Shown here: positions 13,783-24,037 of the stretch, piece by piece
Numbering within the stretch: the first letter of the stretch is position 1
Layout: each line of letters starts with the position of its first letter
Assembly: GCF_008016455.1 (NCBI RefSeq)
Contig: NZ_SAXU01000001.1
Span: 806,001-870,000, forward strand
DNA from: Brachyspira aalborgi
Lineage (GTDB): Bacteria; Spirochaetota; Brachyspiria; Brachyspirales; Brachyspiraceae
Length of the DNA stretch: 64,000 nt
Direction: 5' to 3'
Translations under genes and position numbers: made by a program
Notes under the pieces: model-generated
What the model was told of the DNA's origin: nothing
The model's input: the letters and a program-made list of their open reading frames with translations, nothing else
Database searches by the model: none

Positions 13783-14883
13783 CTAAATTTTTGACATTAT
13801 AATATCGCCCATTTCAGAACATCCGACTTTTTTATATGATAATTCCATATTTTTTGGAATTAAATCTATTGTTCTATAATTTTCTTCAATAGTTTTATTA
13901 ACCGCATTCTCAATATCTTCCGCTTCTTCTAATAAATTAAAAGAATATCTAAACATCATAGATAAAGATAAAATAGCGCCTATTGGATTTGCAATATCTT
14001 TTCTAGCGATATCGGGCGCAGAACCATGAATAGGCTCATACATTCCGATAGAATTATCCGATAAACTTGCAGAAGGCGACATTCCAATCGAACCCGTTAA
14101 CATACTCGCTTCGTCAGAAAGTATATCTCCAAACATATTTTCTGTTACTATAATTCCAAATTGCGAAGGATTAGCTATTAATTGCATTGCCGCATTATCG
14201 ACATACATATCTTTATATTCAATCTCTTTATATTCTTTAGACAAATCGTTCATAATCTCTCGCCATAATTTTGAAGAATATAAAACATTAGCCTTATCTA
14301 CCGAAACAATATTTTTTTTATTTTTTTTAGCCATCTCAAAAGCGACTTTTCCTATTCTTTTTATTTCGTCTTCTCTATAAATCATAATATCGCTTGCCTG
14401 CCTAATATTATTGACAGTTTCAAAAGAATGTTTGCCGAAATATATTCCGCCCGTAAGTTCTCTAACTATAATAAAATCTATAGAATCGTTTTCATTTATT
14501 TTAAGAGGCGATGCATATTCCAAAGGCTTTAAAATTTTTGTCGGTCTTATATTTGCATAAAGATTCATTTCTTTACGAAGTTTTAATAATCCTCTTTCGG
14601 GTCTATTTTCTGGCTCTACATTATCCCATTTATAACCGCCAACCGAACCAAGCAAAACTGCATCCGATTTTAAGCACTTTTCTAAATTTTCGTCAGTTAA
14701 AGGAATTCCATATTTATCAATCGAACATCCGCCCATATCGACATATTCCAAATTAAATTTATGCGAATATTTTTTTTCTATTTTTTTTAATATTTCTATA
14801 GCTTTTTCAATGATTTCTGGACCTATTCCGTCTCCTTTGATAACCGCAATATTTTTTTCTATTTTTTTAATTTCTTTATTCAT
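13783..14883 (-). CDS. leuB: 3-isopropylmalate dehydrogenase LeuB
   Basis: LeuB oxidises and decarboxylates 3-isopropylmalate in leucine synthesis. It shows the N-terminal nucleotide/substrate site IKGDGIGPEI, the SVGGYKWD region, ELTGGIYFG, and the C-terminal EPIHGSAPDIA motif. I start it at the ATG at 14883 (MNKEIKK). The frame is open to a TTG at 14892, but that would overlap leuD and has no better ribosome site. It is the last gene of the ilv-leu operon. Confidence 0.95.
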   Translation of the reverse strand: MNKEIKKIEKNIAVIKGDGIGPEIIEKAIEILKKIEKKYSHKFNLEYVDMGGCSIDKYGIPLTDENLEKCLKSDAVLLGSVGGYKWDNVEPENRPERGLLKLRKEMNLYANIRPTKILKPLEYASPLKINENDSIDFIIVRELTGGIYFGKHSFETVNNIRQASDIMIYREDEIKRIGKVAFEMAKKNKKNIVSVDKANVLYSSKLWREIMNDLSKEYKEIEYKDMYVDNAAMQLIANPSQFGIIVTENMFGDILSDEASMLTGSIGMSPSASLSDNSIGMYEPIHGSAPDIARKDIANPIGAILSLSMMFRYSFNLLEEAEDIENAVNKTIEENYRTIDLIPKNMELSYKKVGCSEMGDIIMSKI

Positions 14884-14888
14884 AATAA

Positions 14889-15374
14889 TCAACCGTTTTT
14901 TATAGAATTCAAAAGCCCGTTTGAGTTTATAATATTTTTAATAAATTCTGGAAAAGGCTCGGATTTATATATTTCGTTTTTAGTAATATTTTTTATTATT
15001 CCGTTATCAAAATCGACTTCCACTTCGTCATTATCTACAATTTTTTTGCTCGCTTCTTCGCATTCTAAAATTGCAAGCCCAATATTAATTGAATTTCTAT
15101 AAAAAATTCTAGCAAAAGAAGAGGCAATAACGCAAGAAATTCCCGATTCTTTTATTGCTATCGGCGCATGCTCTCTCGAAGAACCGCATCCGAAATTTTC
15201 GCCTCCTACAATAATATCGCCTTTTTGGACTTTATTAACAAAATCTTTATCTATATCTTCCATACAATGAGATGCAAGCTCTTTATGATTAGCGGTATTC
15301 AAATATCTTGCTGGAATAATGACATCCGTGTCGATATTGTCTCCGTATTTATGAACATAACCTTTAGCTTTCAT
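14889..15374 (-). CDS. leuD: 3-isopropylmalate dehydratase small subunit LeuD
   Basis: LeuD is the swivel-domain subunit of isopropylmalate isomerase and pairs with LeuC. It carries [12 protein letters not shown] near the N-terminus and the [14 protein letters not shown] signature (about 58-71). At 161 aa it is the short form typical of LeuCD in anaerobes. GGAG lies 8 nt upstream. leuB begins 5 nt after its stop. Confidence 0.95.
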
Positions 15375-15407: not shown

Positions 15408-16655
15408 TTATTTTGGCTCGGTTATATAGCCCGTTAATGCGCTATAAGCCGCAGTCGCTGGACTTGCCAAATAAACCTTTGAAGTTTTATCTCCCATTCT
15501 TCCTACAAAATTTCTATTCGTAGTCGTAACGGCAACTTCATCATGAGCGAGTATTCCCATATATCCGCCTAAACAAGGTCCGCATGTCGGAGTAGAAACC
15601 GCGCATCCCGAATCGATAAATATATCCATATAACCTCTTTTAATGCATTCTTTATACACTTTTTGAGTGGCTGGAATTATAATGCATCTAACATTTTTAG
15701 CTATTTTTTTACCTTTCAAAATATTAGCCGCCGTTTCCATATCGGAAATTCTACCGTTTGTGCATGAACCTATAACTACTTGGTCTATCTTTATATTTTT
15801 AAGCTCTTTAGCTTCTTTAGTATTTTCGGGCAAATGCGGACATGCAACCGTAGGTTCCATAGAAGATAAATCTATATCTATAATTTTTTCGTAAATCGCA
15901 TTTTCATCGGCTTTGAATATTTTATAATCTCTACTAACTATATCTTTTAAATAATCTACAGTCTGATTATCGACTTCAAATATTCCGTTTTTAGCGCCCG
16001 CCTCTATTGCCATATTTGAAATGCATGCTCTATCGTCCATAGTTAAAGAATTAAGTCCTTCTCCCGAAAATTCCATCGATTTATATAAAGCTCCATCAAC
16101 TCCGATATTTCCGATAATATGAAGTATAACATCTTTACCCGAAACATTATTTTTTAATTTTCCTTTCAAATTAAATTTAATAGCCGAAGGAACTTTAAAC
16201 CAAACCTCTCCCGTAGCCATAGCAGCCGCCATATCCGTGCTTCCCACTCCCGTAGAAAAAGCCCCAAAAGCTCCATAAGTGCAGGTATGGGAATCCGCTC
16301 CAATTATTAACTCTCCAGGCGCTATTAAACCTTTTTCAGGCAAAAGCGCATGCTCTACTCCCATATCGCCAACATCGTAATAATGTTTTATATCGTATTT
16401 ATTTGCAAAGTCTCTGCATTGTTTACATTGTTCTGCGGCTTTTATATCTTTATTTGGGGCGAAATGGTCCATAACCAAAGCGATTTTTTCATTATCAAAA
16501 ACTTTATTAAATCCGTATTTTTCAAATTCGTTAATCGCTACGGGACTCGTTATATCGTTTCCCAATACCAAATCGGTTTTTACTTTTATAAGCTCTCCCG
16601 CTTCAACTTTTTCTGCATTGCAATGAGCCGCTAAAATTTTTTGAGTAATAGTCAT
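15408..16655 (-). CDS. leuC: 3-isopropylmalate dehydratase large subunit LeuC
   Basis: LeuC holds the 4Fe-4S cluster of isopropylmalate isomerase. Cluster cysteines are visible in GSCTNGR and in the CGPCLGG region, and [15 protein letters not shown] is a strong family motif. The 415-residue length fits the two-subunit class. AAGGAT precedes the ATG. It lies between leuA and leuD. Confidence 0.95.
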
Positions 16656-16697: not shown

Positions 16698-18200
16698 TTA
16701 TAACTTATTTAGGGCATTAACATAAGCTTTTAAACTCGCTTCAATAACATTTGTGCTAACCGCTCTTCCTATAACCATTTTATCTTTTCCATCCGAAAGT
16801 TTTACTATAACCTCGCCCAAAGCGTCCTCTCCTTCAGTAATAGCGTTTATGCTGTAAGTAGTTAATTTCGCTCTGTTTGAAGTTATAGAATCTATCGCGC
16901 AAAATGCGGCGTCAATCGGTCCGTTTCCTTTCGCTATTCCTTCGACTACATTATTATCGTTATAAAGTATAGAAACCGCAGCCAAAGAAGAAATATCGCT
17001 TCCCGAATTGACTACAAAACTTTTTAAGGAATAAGTCGGATTTTCCATAACGCTACCGCTTCCTATTACCAAAGCCTCGATATCGGAATCTGTGACAATT
17101 TTTTTCTTGTCGGCTAAATTCTTAAAACTTATAAAAGCTTCTTCCAAAGTTTTTTTATCAATATCGTATCCTAAAGATTTTACTCTATCCTTAAAAGCAT
17201 GCTTGCCTGAATGTTTGCCCAAAACCATTTTATTTTGAGGAATTCCTATATCTTCGACATTCATTATCTCATAAGTGCTTCTCTCTTTCAATACGCCATG
17301 TTGATGAATTCCCGCTTCATGAGCGAATGCGTTTGAACCGACTATAGCCTTATTAGGAGCGACAACCATACCAGATATTGTAGATAATAATTTTGATATT
17401 TTATATATTCTTTTTGTATTTATATTAGTATAAGCGTTATAAAAATCTTTTCTCGTCTTTATTCCCATAACTATCTCTTCCAAACTCGCATTTCCAGCGC
17501 GCTCTCCAATTCCGTTTATAGTGCATTCCACTTGAGTAGCACCCGCCAAAATTGCAGAAAGAGAATTTGCAGTTCCAAGTCCCAAATCGTCATGGCAATG
17601 AACGGATATATCTACTTTATCAATTCCTTTAACATTTTCTTTTAAATATTTTATCAAATCAGCCATTTCAATAGGCGTAGAATAACCGACAGTATCTGGA
17701 ACATTTATCGTAGTAGCTCCGTTTTCAATAGCGATAGAATAAGCTTTTGCCAAAAATTCTCTATCGCTTCTAGATGCATCTTCGGCGGAAAATTCTATAA
17801 AATCAAATTTCTTTTTTGCATAAGAAACAGAATCTTTTATAGCTTTCAATACCTGCTCTCTCGTCATTTCAAGTTTATGCTTCAAATGAATATCGCTTGT
17901 CGCTATAAATATATGGAGCATCGGATGTTTTGCTTCGGCTAAAGATTCGTAAGCTCTATCTATATCTTTTTTATTGCATCTAGATAAACTTGCCAATTTT
18001 GAATTTTTTACGACTTTGCTAATTTCTTTTATAGCTTTAAAATCATCGTCCGAACAAATTGCAAATCCGCCTTCTATTACATCGACTCCCAATTTATCCA
18101 ATTCAGAAGCCATCTCCAATTTTTCGTTTAAATTCATTGTGCAACCTGGCGATTGCTCGCCGTCTCTTAAAGTAGTGTCAAAAATTTTAATCTTTCTCAT
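16698..18200 (-). CDS. leuA: 2-isopropylmalate synthase LeuA
   Basis: LeuA condenses acetyl-CoA with 2-ketoisovalerate, the committed step to leucine. The TIM-barrel opens with FDTTLRDGEQSPG, has HCHDDLGLGTAN as metal-binding motif, and ends with the regulatory domain that binds leucine in relatives. I choose the ATG at 18200 because GAGG lies 8 nt upstream; the frame is open to an ATG at 18215, which would put the ribosome site inside the gene. A complete regulatory domain suggests feedback inhibition in addition to operon control. Confidence 0.95.
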   Translation of the reverse strand: MRKIKIFDTTLRDGEQSPGCTMNLNEKLEMASELDKLGVDVIEGGFAICSDDDFKAIKEISKVVKNSKLASLSRCNKKDIDRAYESLAEAKHPMLHIFIATSDIHLKHKLEMTREQVLKAIKDSVSYAKKKFDFIEFSAEDASRSDREFLAKAYSIAIENGATTINVPDTVGYSTPIEMADLIKYLKENVKGIDKVDISVHCHDDLGLGTANSLSAILAGATQVECTINGIGERAGNASLEEIVMGIKTRKDFYNAYTNINTKRIYKISKLLSTISGMVVAPNKAIVGSNAFAHEAGIHQHGVLKERSTYEIMNVEDIGIPQNKMVLGKHSGKHAFKDRVKSLGYDIDKKTLEEAFISFKNLADKKKIVTDSDIEALVIGSGSVMENPTYSLKSFVVNSGSDISSLAAVSILYNDNNVVEGIAKGNGPIDAAFCAIDSITSNRAKLTTYSINAITEGEDALGEVIVKLSDGKDKMVIGRAVSTNVIEASLKAYVNALNKL

Positions 18201-18235
18201 TTTTAAACCTCGCATATAAAACGATAAATTAAATA

Positions 18236-19282
<1,047 letters not shown>

Positions 19283-19307: not shown

Positions 19308-19820
19308 TCAATAATTATCGGTTAAATCAATAGTTGGAATTTTATCTCCTCGCTCCATTGCCGTTATTCCCGTTCTCGATAATTCTAAAATATTAAATTC
19401 CGAAATTTCTTTTAAATAATTATCTATAGTTTCGGGTTTATCGGTAAATTCGGTTATAATACCGCCTGAAAATTCATCCGTAATTTTAGCTTTGTATTTA
19501 TTAATTATATCATATAACTCATTTTTTTTAGAATCTTCTACGGCTATTTTTAATAATAATAAATCTCTTTCAATAATATTTTCATTATCAAGCAAAAATA
19601 CAGAATGAATCTCTATCAATTTTAATGTTTGTTTAATTATTTGAGAGATTTGAGATTCGTCTCCTTCCGTTACTATTGTCATCCTCGCAATATTTGGATA
19701 GCAAGTAGCCGAACAAGTTATACTCAATATATTAAATCCTCTCTGACTAAATAAAAGGCAAACTCTTGTAAGAACGCCCGAGCTATTGTCTACAAATAAA
19801 ACTAAAATTCTTTTCTTCAT
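19308..19820 (-). CDS. ilvN: Acetolactate synthase small (regulatory) subunit
   Basis: The 170-residue protein has an N-terminal ACT domain (VLFVDNSSGVLTRVCLLFSQRGFN) and the C-terminal domain found in IlvN/IlvH. It activates IlvB and normally confers valine feedback inhibition. AGAGG lies 8 nt before the ATG. It follows ilvB by 20 nt. The name ilvH would be equally valid. Confidence 0.93.
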   Translation of the reverse strand: MKKRILVLFVDNSSGVLTRVCLLFSQRGFNILSITCSATCYPNIARMTIVTEGDESQISQIIKQTLKLIEIHSVFLLDNENIIERDLLLLKIAVEDSKKNELYDIINKYKAKITDEFSGGIITEFTDKPETIDNYLKEISEFNILELSRTGITAMERGDKIPTIDLTDNY

Positions 19821-19840: not shown

Positions 19841-21514
19841 TTAATTTAATATAATATCTTCAACAGTTCCGCCCGATGGAATCATAGGCAAAACTTTTAA
19901 ATCTTTATCTATTATGCATTCTATCCAAACTGGAACTTTTTCTTTTAAGGCGTTATCAAATGCTTTTTCAAATTCTTCTAAAGTTTCGCATCTGAATCCT
20001 TTAGCTCCAAAACCTTCCGCAACTTTTATATAATCTATTTTTTTATTCATATCCGTGCTTGAATATCTCTCTTCATAAAAAACATTTTGCCATTGTCTAA
20101 CCATACCTAATGTATTGTTATTAAATATTACGGAAATTATAGGTAATTTATATTCTATAGCCGTAGCGACTTCATTTAAATTCATATAAAAAGAACCGTC
20201 TCCCGTTAAATGAACAACATGCCTTTCAGGTTTCGCAATTTTAGCGCCAATGGAAGCTCCATAACCAAATCCCATAGTTCCAAGTCCTCCGCTCGTTATA
20301 AAACTTCTTGGTTTTGTATGATGAAGATATTGAACCGCCCACATTTGATGCTGTCCAACATCGGTTACATATATTACATTATCCTCGCATTTATAACCGA
20401 TTGATTCTATAATATTTTTAGGATGAAATATATTGTCTTTGGAATATTTTTTTGTATTATTTTCTTCTTCTTTCATTTTCAAATTTGATAATTTTGAAAC
20501 CCATTCGTCATTATTTAATCTATTAATCAATTTTGAAAATTTATCTAATACATCATCAATATCTCCTATTATGCTATAATCTACTTTAACATTTTTATTA
20601 ACTTCGCTTCCATCTATATCTATATGCACTTTTTTAGCGTTATTTCCAAATTTTGAAGTATTGAGGGCTACTCTATCGCTGAATCTCGTTCCTATAGCCA
20701 ATATTAAATCGGCTTCGTTTATAACTTTATTTGCAGTTTCGCTTCCATGCATTCCTAATAAACCGATATTAAGAGGCTCGTTATATCCTAATGTTCCAGC
20801 TCCCATTATCGTATGAACGGATGGAATATTTGTATTAATCATAAACTTTCTTAATTTATCGCTAGAATCTTTAGCGCCGCCTCCAAAATATATAATAGGT
20901 TTTTTAGACTGATTTATTAATTTTGCAACATTTTCTATAACGCTTTCGTCTTCTTTAGTTATTTTTGGATTTTTTAATTTAATTTTTTCTTTAGGTATAA
21001 AATCGGTAATATCGGCGGTTATATTTTTAGGAACATCGATTAAAACGGGTCCCTTTCTTCCCGAATTCGCTATTATAAAAGCTTTTCTTATTGTGTCGGC
21101 TAAATCTTCTATTTTTCTAACGACAAAATTATGCTTCGTAATAGTCATAGTAATTCCCGCAATATAAACCTCTTGAAAGCTATCTTTACCCATTAAACTT
21201 ATTGGAACATTTCCCGTTATCGCCACAATCGGAACGCTATCCATATAAGCGGTTGCTAAAGGCGTGACTAAATTTGTAGCTCCAGGTCCGCTTGTCGCTA
21301 ATATTACTCCCGTTTTTCCGCTAACTCTCGCATATCCGTCAGCTGCATGTCCAGCGCCGCATTCATCAACAGGCATTATATGATTTAATTTATTTCTATA
21401 TTTATAAAGCGCATCATATATATATAATACAGCTCCTCCAGGATAGCCAAATATTGTGTCTACTCCTTGCTCTATTAAAACTTCCATAATTATTTCAGAA
21501 CCGTTTAATTTCAT
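19841..21514 (-). CDS. ilvB: Acetolactate synthase large subunit IlvB
   Basis: This is the thiamine-diphosphate enzyme that starts branched-chain amino acid synthesis. FGYPGGAVL and the essential glutamate region VDECGAGHAADGYAR lie in the N-terminal domain, a FAD-type middle domain follows, and the ThDP/Mg2+ motif GDGSFYMNLNE lies near residue 440. AAGGAG is 8 nt before the ATG. It is the first enzyme gene of the operon, about 90 nt after the end of the leader-peptide ORF. Confidence 0.96.
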   Translation of the reverse strand: MKLNGSEIIMEVLIEQGVDTIFGYPGGAVLYIYDALYKYRNKLNHIMPVDECGAGHAADGYARVSGKTGVILATSGPGATNLVTPLATAYMDSVPIVAITGNVPISLMGKDSFQEVYIAGITMTITKHNFVVRKIEDLADTIRKAFIIANSGRKGPVLIDVPKNITADITDFIPKEKIKLKNPKITKEDESVIENVAKLINQSKKPIIYFGGGAKDSSDKLRKFMINTNIPSVHTIMGAGTLGYNEPLNIGLLGMHGSETANKVINEADLILAIGTRFSDRVALNTSKFGNNAKKVHIDIDGSEVNKNVKVDYSIIGDIDDVLDKFSKLINRLNNDEWVSKLSNLKMKEEENNTKKYSKDNIFHPKNIIESIGYKCEDNVIYVTDVGQHQMWAVQYLHHTKPRSFITSGGLGTMGFGYGASIGAKIAKPERHVVHLTGDGSFYMNLNEVATAIEYKLPIISVIFNNNTLGMVRQWQNVFYEERYSSTDMNKKIDYIKVAEGFGAKGFRCETLEEFEKAFDNALKEKVPVWIECIIDKDLKVLPMIPSGGTVEDIILN

Positions 21515-21550
21515 TTTAAAACTCCTTATTAAAAAATTGCATTAATTTTA

Positions 21551-21575
21551 AAATATTATATTTTGTATAATATTT
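21551..21575 (-). terminator. AT-only hairpin, candidate attenuator of the ilv-leu operon
   Basis: A perfect 10-bp stem (AAATATTATA / TATAATATTT) with a 5-nt loop lies between the leader-peptide stop and ilvB. It is followed by TTTT and, 10 nt later, TTTTTT. A stretch inside the leader ORF (ATAATATT) is complementary to the 5' arm and could form an alternative structure. In such AT-rich DNA the hairpin could also arise by chance. Confidence 0.4.
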
Positions 21576-21606
21576 AAATTTTATTTTTATAAATTATTTT
21601 TATTTA

Positions 21607-21738
21607 TTACAGAATATTAATTAGAATAGATAAGAGAATGTTAAGAATATTATTTTGATTTCTTTTATTGTTATATTTTTTAGAATAATTAAACGAATAA
21701 GAATAACTTATTTCGTTTGATGCATGAAACTTGTTCAT
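21607..21738 (-). CDS. Branched-chain amino acid leader peptide (attenuation)
   Basis: AGGAG lies 8 nt before an ATG that opens a 43-codon frame. The first part is rich in Asn, Lys, Tyr and Ser. The last 13 residues are ILNILLSILINIL, with five Ile and five Leu codons. The five Leu codons are all different (CTT, CTC, TTA, CTA, CTG), while all five Ile codons are ATT. It lies between a good promoter and ilvB, the layout of amino-acid attenuators of ilv and leu operons. Ribosome stalling on the Ile/Leu run would sense shortage of charged tRNAs. It was identified from sequence alone. Confidence 0.8.
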   Translation of the reverse strand: MNKFHASNEISYSYSFNYSKKYNNKRNQNNILNILLSILINIL

Positions 21739-21784
21739 TTTTCTTCTCCTATTTTTTTATTTATTTAGTTTTAATTTTAAAGAA

Positions 21785-21813
21785 ATTATAACATTTTTTA
21801 AAATAAATTGCAA
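21785..21813 (-). promoter_or_regulatory. Promoter of the ilv-leu operon
   Basis: TTGCAA (21813-21808) and TATAAT (21790-21785) are separated by 17 bp. Transcription would start near 21778, about 40 nt before the leader peptide and about 265 nt before ilvB. It overlaps the 3' end of the neighbouring membrane-protein gene. Confidence 0.7.
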
Positions 21814-21817
21814 TACT

Positions 21818-23872
21818 TTAATTAAATTTTTTATTCAATTCAAATATATTAATTTCTCCTACATTATTCAAATAATTAAAATTATAGTCGGTTAATTCGT
21901 TTTTAATTTTATCTATATCTTTATAATCAATCATTAAATAAAAATTATTTTCTTTAATGGAATTCAATTCGTTTCTATCATTTAAATATGAGTAATAAAG
22001 ATTAGTATTCAAATAATGAAAATCATAATAATTAATAAAAGATTTATAAGCGTAAACATTATAATTATTAGTTAAAACATATTTATCTTTATCAACAACT
22101 TCAAAATAAACAAATCTTTTAGAATTAGTTATATTAAATATATAAATTATTGATATTAAAGAAAGTAAAATAATTCTAATTTTTAAATTAGTAATAAAAC
22201 AAATAATTAATGGAATAAAAAATAATATAAATATATAACTTGATGCCGAATATCTTTCAAGTTTATACGGCGAAGTCAAATCTCCCAAAATTGCAAATAT
22301 TAATCCTAATAAAATAATAAATATTAATAATTTAAATTTTGATTTTTCTGCGATTATATTTAAATCTTTTTTCTTTATAATTTTTGATATTAAAATAAAA
22401 ACAAACAAAGTTAATAAAATTATTAATAATCCGTCAAAAGCTAAATCGTTAATATAATTAAATAATTTTCCCGAAAAAGCCAAAGAAGAAGACGCTCTAT
22501 TATTTGCATTAAATAAAGAAGCGAAAAAACTATTATATAATATTCTTGAGACAAATAAAGCCGAGATAAAAGCGAGCGCATAATATATTATTATTTTATA
22601 ACTTTTTATTTTTAATAAAGGATTTAATATCGCGTATTTATTTTTTAAGAATTCTAATTTATCAATATTTAAACAATAATTAAAAAATAACATTGCCGAT
22701 AAAATTAAAATAAATAATAATGAAGAATATAAAGTTAAATAACCAATTCCCGCGATTATTGAAGTTAAAATTAAATTTAGGATAGAATATTTATTATAAT
22801 AAATCGTATTCAAAACAAAATAAGTAATTACAATAAAGAAAGTTTCCTGCATTTGATAGGCTCTCAAAAACATAGAAAAACTTATTGATATTGGAGATAA
22901 TGAAAAAATTAATAAAGTAAATATTATAAATTCATTTTTATTTTCAAATATTAATTTTAAGATTTTAAATAAAAATATAAATGAAATAATTGAAAAAATG
23001 CAATTTAAAATCGTTCCTGTAATAATTATATTTTTAATATCAACCGCTTCTCTTCCGATAAAAGCTAATCTTAAAAAAGTATAATATAAATTGCTTATAA
23101 AAGGGTCGTTAGTGTCTTTATATAATCTCTTTATATCGTTTATGCAATCTTCTATGCTTGAATTATCAAATGTTAAATCTTTTAATATATCAAAACCTTT
23201 AATATTTTTATAATTATTAATTTTATCTTCATTTGCAAAAACTTTATAATTAGCAGCGCTTAAACTATAATATTCGTCCCAATACATACCTTCTTGTTTT
23301 GAAGCCCAGTAAATTCTTACGAATAAAGAAAATGATAATATTAAAAATAAAAAACTATATAAAATGTATTTTTTGTTAATTAAATTATAAAATTTATTAT
23401 AATAATAAATTTTAATATTATTCATTATAAATATTATTAAGATTGATAAATGTAATAATATAATTATCTCTATAATATTCTTTTTTATTTTTAATGTATA
23501 ATTAATATTGTCAATTTTATCTTCTTCAATAATTTTTTTATCTGAAATAAAAATTCCAAAAGGACTACCAAAATAATCCATTTTAATTTCTTTCACAAAA
23601 TCTGGTAAGTTTGATAAATCAGGATAAACTCCGTAAATATCGTTATTTCTAAATGTTTTGTCATAATATCTAATTCTAAAATGATAAACATAATTAGTTA
23701 TATTTTCCGAATTATTTAACTTCATTGTTTTATCAACAACTAAACTAAAATCACTTAAATATCCAATTCTATTTTTAGAACCAAGAATTTGTAAAACGAT
23801 TAGAGTAATAATTGTAATAATCACAAACGGAATATAAATTTTTAGAAATAAATTTTTGTTTTTAGATTTCAT
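21818..23872 (-). CDS. Polytopic membrane glycosyltransferase-like protein (GT-C / GT39-like)
   Basis: The 684-residue protein has an N-terminal membrane helix, an extracytoplasmic segment (about 30-130), then about ten hydrophobic segments. The motif RIYWASKQEGMYWDEYYSLS near residue 190 has the acidic pair after a membrane helix seen in GT-C enzymes that use lipid-linked sugars, such as ArnT or PMT relatives. This supports a role in surface glycan or lipid modification, with donor and acceptor unknown. AAGGA lies 9 nt before the ATG. Expression is probably controlled by the repeat-containing attenuator immediately upstream. Confidence 0.65.
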   Translation of the reverse strand: MKSKNKNLFLKIYIPFVIITIITLIVLQILGSKNRIGYLSDFSLVVDKTMKLNNSENITNYVYHFRIRYYDKTFRNNDIYGVYPDLSNLPDFVKEIKMDYFGSPFGIFISDKKIIEEDKIDNINYTLKIKKNIIEIIILLHLSILIIFIMNNIKIYYYNKFYNLINKKYILYSFLFLILSFSLFVRIYWASKQEGMYWDEYYSLSAANYKVFANEDKINNYKNIKGFDILKDLTFDNSSIEDCINDIKRLYKDTNDPFISNLYYTFLRLAFIGREAVDIKNIIITGTILNCIFSIISFIFLFKILKLIFENKNEFIIFTLLIFSLSPISISFSMFLRAYQMQETFFIVITYFVLNTIYYNKYSILNLILTSIIAGIGYLTLYSSLLFILILSAMLFFNYCLNIDKLEFLKNKYAILNPLLKIKSYKIIIYYALAFISALFVSRILYNSFFASLFNANNRASSSLAFSGKLFNYINDLAFDGLLIILLTLFVFILISKIIKKKDLNIIAEKSKFKLLIFIILLGLIFAILGDLTSPYKLERYSASSYIFILFFIPLIICFITNLKIRIILLSLISIIYIFNITNSKRFVYFEVVDKDKYVLTNNYNVYAYKSFINYYDFHYLNTNLYYSYLNDRNELNSIKENNFYLMIDYKDIDKIKNELTDYNFNYLNNVGEINIFELNKKFN

Positions 23873-23955: not shown

Positions 23956-23985
23956 AAAAAACAGCCAAAAATTATAATAATGGCT
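23956..23985 (-). terminator. Intrinsic terminator in leader A, with the leader stop codon in its loop
   Basis: Stem AGCCA/TGGCT, a 13-nt loop containing TAA, then G and TTTTTT. It lies directly after the pentanucleotide repeats and about 85 nt before the glycosyltransferase ATG. The equivalent stem in leader B has different bases that still pair, supporting a conserved structure. Confidence 0.6.
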
Positions 23986-24037
23986 TGTATTGTATTGTAT
24001 TGTATTGTATTGTATTGTAGAATTTACATCCGCTCAT
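23972..24037 (-). CDS. Leader peptide A containing pentanucleotide repeats (21 aa)
   Basis: AAAGGAG sits 9 nt before ATG. The frame reads MSGCKF, then YNTIQ twice, then YKPLL and TAA. The repeats supply a five-codon period because the 5-bp unit is not a multiple of three. The stop lies in the terminator loop. Gain of one repeat would move the leader into a frame that stays open to a TGA overlapping the glycosyltransferase ATG (ATGA). Loss of one would give a frame that reads through the stem and stops about 20 nt before that ATG. Confidence 0.7.
   Translation of the reverse strand: MSGCKFYNTIQYNTIQYKPLL
23985..24019 (-). repeat. Pentanucleotide tandem repeat, (TACAA) x7 on the minus strand
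   Basis: Seven perfect copies inside leader ORF A. Perfect short tandem repeats of this length are prone to slipped-strand mispairing. The last base overlaps the outer base of the terminator stem. Confidence 0.95.

Follow-up and report, generated by a model that had tools for sequence, protein, structure and literature searches.

A leader peptide before the ilv-leu operon of Brachyspira and its possible action as an attenuator without an intrinsic terminator

The ilv-leu operon of Brachyspira is preceded by a conserved leader ORF that ends in a run of Leu, Ile and Val codons, and we lean towards the view that it is a ribosome-mediated leader-peptide attenuator working without an intrinsic terminator. 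A homologous leader was found 5′ of ilvB in 24 of the 24 Brachyspira genomes in which this region could be read. Brachyspira are gut spirochaetes, and the ilvB leader probably senses a shortage of branched-chain amino acids; because it lacks a transcription terminator, the operon must be switched by another route. The leader would thus work like a leader-peptide attenuator, but we do not class it as a classical one. If this is true, an attenuator of this kind, found across the genus, either lost its terminator or never had one.

The locus was analysed in a window of 64,000 nucleotides of Brachyspira aalborgi DNA, to which all positions given without a contig name refer. The minus strand carries, in this order, a promoter, the leader ORF, ilvB (acetolactate synthase large subunit, 19841–21514; TIGR00118), ilvN (acetolactate synthase small subunit, 19308–19820; TIGR00119), ilvC (ketol-acid reductoisomerase, 18236–19231; TIGR00465), leuA (2-isopropylmalate synthase, 16698–18215; TIGR00973), leuC (3-isopropylmalate dehydratase large subunit, 15408–16655; TIGR02083), leuD (3-isopropylmalate dehydratase small subunit, 14889–15374; TIGR02084) and leuB (3-isopropylmalate dehydrogenase, 13783–14892; TIGR00169), and all seven enzymes exceed their NCBIfam cut-offs. 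The leader ORF (21738–21607, minus strand; 43 codons plus stop) encodes MNKFHASNEISYSYSFNYSKKYNNKRNQNNILNILLSILINIL. Its Shine–Dalgarno (SD) sequence, AGGAG (21746–21750, minus strand), lies 12 nt 5′ of the ATG, and the distance from its stop codon to ilvB, which has an AGGAG of its own (21522–21526, minus strand), is 92 nt. Everything that the first-pass annotation had described here, namely a 43-residue leader with a ribosome site and an Ile/Leu-rich end before ilvB, is present. Upstream of the leader lies a promoter-like site, TTGCAA-17-TATAAT (21785–21813, minus strand), with an extended −10 element and a 10/12 match to the consensus; the scan that gave it was overall near chance level, and the TATTGCAAT and TATAAT blocks can be aligned in the relatives and in a second copy of the leader described below. 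Directly 5′ of the leader, the window encodes a 684-residue hydrophobic protein, probably a membrane protein (21818–23872, minus strand), with no Pfam or NCBIfam match. The intergenic stretch at 23985–24019 carries seven perfect tandem copies of the 5-base unit TTGTA, possibly a phase-variable or hypermutable tract.

The putative regulatory codon run occupies positions 21610–21648 of the minus strand and reads ATT CTT AAC ATT CTC TTA TCT ATT CTA ATT AAT ATT CTG. Ile or Leu makes up 10 of the last 13 residues, which has a probability of about 1e-4 under the amino-acid frequencies of the window, before correction for the search. The five Leu residues of the run are encoded by CTT, CTC, TTA, CTA and CTG and the five Ile residues by ATT throughout, exactly as had been annotated for this genome; the sixth Ile codon of the leader, ATA, lies before the run.

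ilvB homologues were found in 25 of the 26 genus genomes, among them a contig of B. pilosicoli T010. The 24 readable genomes include the locus L011 and leave out G023, where the region is missing; in the 23 other than the window genome, an SD-led leader ORF lies ~94–134 nt 5′ of ilvB. The leaders, 24–50 residues long, share only their C-terminal part, their N-termini being hardly conserved. Most carry the C-terminal motif (N)ILLSILxNIL, the pilosicoli-type clade has a 24-residue leader with the ending ILLSLIIIL, and the Ser in the run is invariant. The window genome (G000) and G002 form one lineage, with IlvB proteins 91% identical to each other and ~24% divergent from the rest. The first-pass annotation had staked its case on conservation of the leader frame in close relatives; we ran this comparison, and the run is conserved while the rest of the peptide varies. 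A profile search gave clear scores only at ilvB and at one aminotransferase gene, and gave no match at a clear score in G019, a genome that also lacks ilvB, ilvD and the aminotransferase. No leader was seen 5′ of ilvD or hisG by the SD-plus-ORF rule, and a literature search found no relevant work on leader peptides or transcript-start maps in Brachyspira. In one genome (G146, locus L233), an SD-led, Ile/Leu-rich ORF spans both the SD and the start codon of ilvB and terminates within the gene, possibly a variant that uses translational coupling.

Which property of the run has been conserved? In the long ORFs of the window, 59% of the Leu codons are TTA, 1.5% CTC and 0.4% CTG, and 52% of the Ile codons are ATA, whereas in the relatives' leaders CTC accounts for 43%, CTG for 19% and TTA for 17% of Leu, and ATA for 7% of Ile; the Leu codon bias of the leader runs opposite to genome usage. 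Similarly, among 12 representatives, Val is GTC in 8 of 8 cases within the run and GTT or GTA in 11 of 11 outside it. All 25 leaders encode the final Leu of the conserved motif by CTG, with the stop codon, or TTA and a stop, coming next. The conserved feature is the presence of rare codons in the run, with an excess of CTC and GTC, a terminal CTG and few TTA or TTG codons. The "all-different" leucine codons that had first drawn attention to the leader are real in the window genome but peculiar to it, as the relatives use mostly CTC; they are a local accident. The genome encodes tRNA-Leu with anticodons GAG, UAG, UAA and CAA, and tRNA-Val with UAC alone. The preference for C over T at the third position is not explained by tRNA identity because one G34 tRNA could read both codons, and this argues for a role at the RNA level or for rarity as such. 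In theory developed for E. coli, the codon choice in such leaders is expected to be biased, but not simply towards rare codons (PMC1183508). The use of the rarest Leu and Val codons, with C over T, sets tuning to tRNA charging against tuning of an RNA signal, be it an anti-SD or Rho loading.

As the run and its rare codon choice are conserved while the N-termini vary, sensing of charged Leu, Ile and Val tRNA by the translating ribosome is supported. The leader would be translated, and a shortage of charged tRNA for Leu (and Ile or Val) would stall the ribosome in the C-terminal run of genus-rare codons; we consider this step very probable. That the stalled ribosome would then switch the operon on, with no need for a terminator hairpin, we regard as probable. 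The sensing half of the original proposal, an Ile/Leu-reading leader in a spirochaete branched-chain operon, is well supported: the leader is conserved, biased in its codons and duplicated, and it is missing together with ilvB.

The proposed output fared differently. Classical attenuation requires a terminator/antiterminator pair, and the annotation had assigned these roles to an AT-only hairpin behind the ORF and to the pairing of its 5′ arm with ATAATATT in the leader. Both elements do exist, and classical ilvB attenuators occur in two other spirochaete lineages, but neither element exceeds chance: the 10-bp stem (21551–21575, minus strand) is equalled in 9% of dinucleotide-shuffled spacers, and the 8-nt complementarity to ATAATATT (21646–21653) in 64%. 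The hairpin has neither a G-C pair nor a U tract, and the sign would be wrong, as a stall would free the 5′ arm and so promote formation of the presumed terminator. Intrinsic terminators were found in none of the 25 Brachyspira leaders by a rule that was positive in its controls (two other spirochaete lineages and other Brachyspira loci, including 5′ of the aminotransferase gene in Brachyspira genomes other than that of the window), and a tool scan gave none in the window region. The very AT-rich window spacer folds with average energy (z = 0.10), z-scores for a conserved spacer fold are near 0 in all genomes (nested folds), and by spacer z-scores and shuffles, no mutually exclusive terminator/antiterminator pairing beyond chance was found. 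The classical output is therefore not supported, and we consider it highly improbable. T-boxes, whose absence had been annotated, were indeed found neither in the window (Rfam RF00230, gathering threshold) nor in the 26 genus genomes, and known RNA families gave nothing above noise at 21480–21830. A palindrome in the clade-1 spacers, TTTCTATAAGTAGAAA, is conserved; we kept it out of the evidence because it lacks compensatory changes and is disrupted in L016. Beside it, the block GGYTATAAAATA is also conserved in clade-1 spacers (for example, L008 and L010), again without compensatory changes. With no terminators and a hairpin at chance level, the output should be either translational or Rho-dependent.

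For a translational output, we infer three steps, namely stalling, SD occlusion and polarity. Once the ribosome has finished the leader and departed, the ilvB SD would be sequestered by the leader Leu codons (CUCCU in most relatives), whereas a ribosome stalled on these codons would leave it accessible. With ilvB untranslated, Rho-dependent polarity would in turn silence the genes downstream. The window genome has TTCTCTTAT in the run (21630–21638, minus strand), complementary to the leader's own SD, and the corresponding position carries a CTCCT anti-SD in most relatives. In thermodynamic predictions that assumed a ribosome footprint of 30 nt and treated the leader SD as occupied, the ilvB SD was nearly closed (unpaired 0.00–0.06) in 9 of 15 modelled leaders when the ribosome stood at the leader stop, and it opened to ~0.3–0.87 in 8 of those 9, the exception being L008, when the ribosome stood on the run; the modelled relatives are not independent samples. 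In 9 of 14 tested leaders, the gain needs the synonymous codon choice, as ≤3% of leaders resampled with Leu, Ile and Val codons redrawn at genome usage equal it. The gain abolished by codon resampling was mostly kept on spacer shuffling, and the predicted switch therefore resides in the CTC-CTM codons. For the window genome and its sister G002, and likewise for the second copy, L008 and L024, the models predicted no such switch, and one output model therefore does not account for every lineage. Because the ilvB SD is invariant, it offers no covariation by which to test the anti-SD pairing, and selection of codons for decoding may have produced the CUCCU motif as a side effect. With no ribosome on the RNA, folding predicts that the run prefers the leader's own SD to that of ilvB as its partner; pairing with the leader SD is predicted in most leaders, including that of the window, where TTCTCTTAT pairs with it at a probability near 1, and it may limit re-initiation on the leader. 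Control of ilvB translation is favoured over Rho as the output for the genus, where we consider it quite possible though short of probable; for the window genome itself, it is doubtful, and neither route is preferred there.

Could Rho end transcription directly? Rho-dependent attenuation has its model in the tna operon of E. coli; here, once the ribosome has completed the leader, Rho would bind the leader RNA, which is rich in C and poor in G, and terminate in the untranslated spacer unless blocked by a ribosome stalled in the run. Rho is encoded, the long, variable spacer lacks structure, and in most relatives the leader is the sense-strand stretch with the greatest excess of C over G (fraction ~0.0004–0.002), to which the third-position preference for C over T in codons readable by one G34 tRNA contributes a further argument. 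This excess is, however, weak in the second copy and in G002 and modest in the window genome, and rut sites are not reliably callable from sequence. Rho has also been suggested for the Mycobacterium cys leader peptides, which likewise have no terminator hairpin but sense Cys and are unrelated in sequence (PMC1262725). We regard this route as possible but rather unlikely.

The TnaC peptide stalls its ribosome in response to free Trp, and by analogy the SILxNIL end, with its invariant Ser and terminal CTG-stop, could arrest the ribosome on a free amino acid. The invariant Ser and the Leu-stop end would suit such an arrest peptide, but the residues of the run interchange freely among I, L, V, F and N, clade 2 has LLSLIIIL instead, and codon identity is more conserved than a peptide effect would predict, so we give this explanation very little weight. 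The invariant Ser would equally suit a small hydrophobic protein with a function of its own and no cis-acting role, as would the good SD and the conserved hydrophobic C-terminus. On the other hand, the peptide varies from 24 to 50 residues with a barely conserved N-terminus, its hydrophobic stretch is short for a membrane span, and the rare-codon bias is limited to the run. Moreover, the ORF always lies 5′ of ilvB, with a copy 5′ of an aminotransferase gene, and is unmatched where ilvB is absent. This is the least probable of the explanations that we weighed.

The leader-peptide attenuator without a terminator can be compared with several known systems. Like the ilv and leu attenuators of E. 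coli and Salmonella, it has a short, apparently translated leader whose Ile/Leu run precedes a branched-chain operon, and like the leucine-rich attenuator peptide of S. aureus ilvD, which has three Ile and then two Leu codons, it comes without a T-box (PMC5794164); those leaders have a conserved intrinsic terminator and antiterminator, whereas the 25 Brachyspira leaders have none. The nearest designs are the actinobacterial LEU element and the Leptospira ilvB upstream ORF. The LEU element, found 5′ of leuA, also has an upstream ORF with a Leu run and no terminator; there the Leu run base-pairs with the structural gene's SD, an interaction predicted in most Brachyspira relatives but not in the window genome (PMC1262725). 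It has a conserved pseudoknot, whereas no conserved fold was found in Brachyspira among nested folds, and mutation of its Leu codons was reported to have no effect on regulation (PMC1262725); unlike it, the Brachyspira run includes Ile and Val and has a rare-codon bias. The ilvB motif of Leptospira, itself a spirochaete, and the ilvB-II motif of Corynebacterium share the branched-chain-rich upstream ORF before ilvB, but they have been described as structured RNAs, ilvB-II with a strong terminator stem (PMC10272879), and the Brachyspira leader has no Rfam match. Closer by descent, a sister genus in the same family (G066, locus L257) has MQSLLVIIIIAILVAFYSVTQREA, then a G+C-containing hairpin and a T-run before ilvB, and L265 (G069) follows the same plan, a branched-chain-rich leader and then a terminator. 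Both have a strong intrinsic terminator just before ilvB, unlike Brachyspira; as judged from sequence, the classical version is present nearby and absent in Brachyspira. If the proposed attenuator is real, the same-family lineage with the classical form would offer a natural experiment on how the output of an attenuator changes.

The window genome contains a second promoter-plus-leader, with a peptide 57% identical to the first, 5′ of a class I/II aminotransferase gene (locus L063; G000:C1:354315-355505, minus strand). Comparison of the two copies gave z = 9.7 for the ORF, with indels of 9, 6 and 3 nt, z = 4.6 for the promoter and 5′UTR, and z = 2.7 for the spacer. The orthologous aminotransferase genes of the other readable genomes have no leader, and in G002 the contig ends there. 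Fold-type IV aminotransferases (PF01063) were found in none of the 26 genus genomes and in 13 of 14 controls, so that IlvE appears to be missing from the genus, and the aminotransferase behind the second leader is therefore a candidate replacement. From this context, we predict that it may act in place of IlvE at the last branched-chain step, the duplicated leader flagging the enzyme. It is somewhat unlikely, taken as a whole, that the CUC-CUM Leu codons serve as both sensor and ilvB anti-SD, so that a ribosome stalled on them opens the gene directly and no dedicated hairpin is needed, that they replaced a terminator output which a sister genus retains, and that in one lineage the module was copied to a substitute branched-chain aminotransferase. 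The closest solved relatives of this aminotransferase are LysN-like and multiple-substrate aminotransferases.
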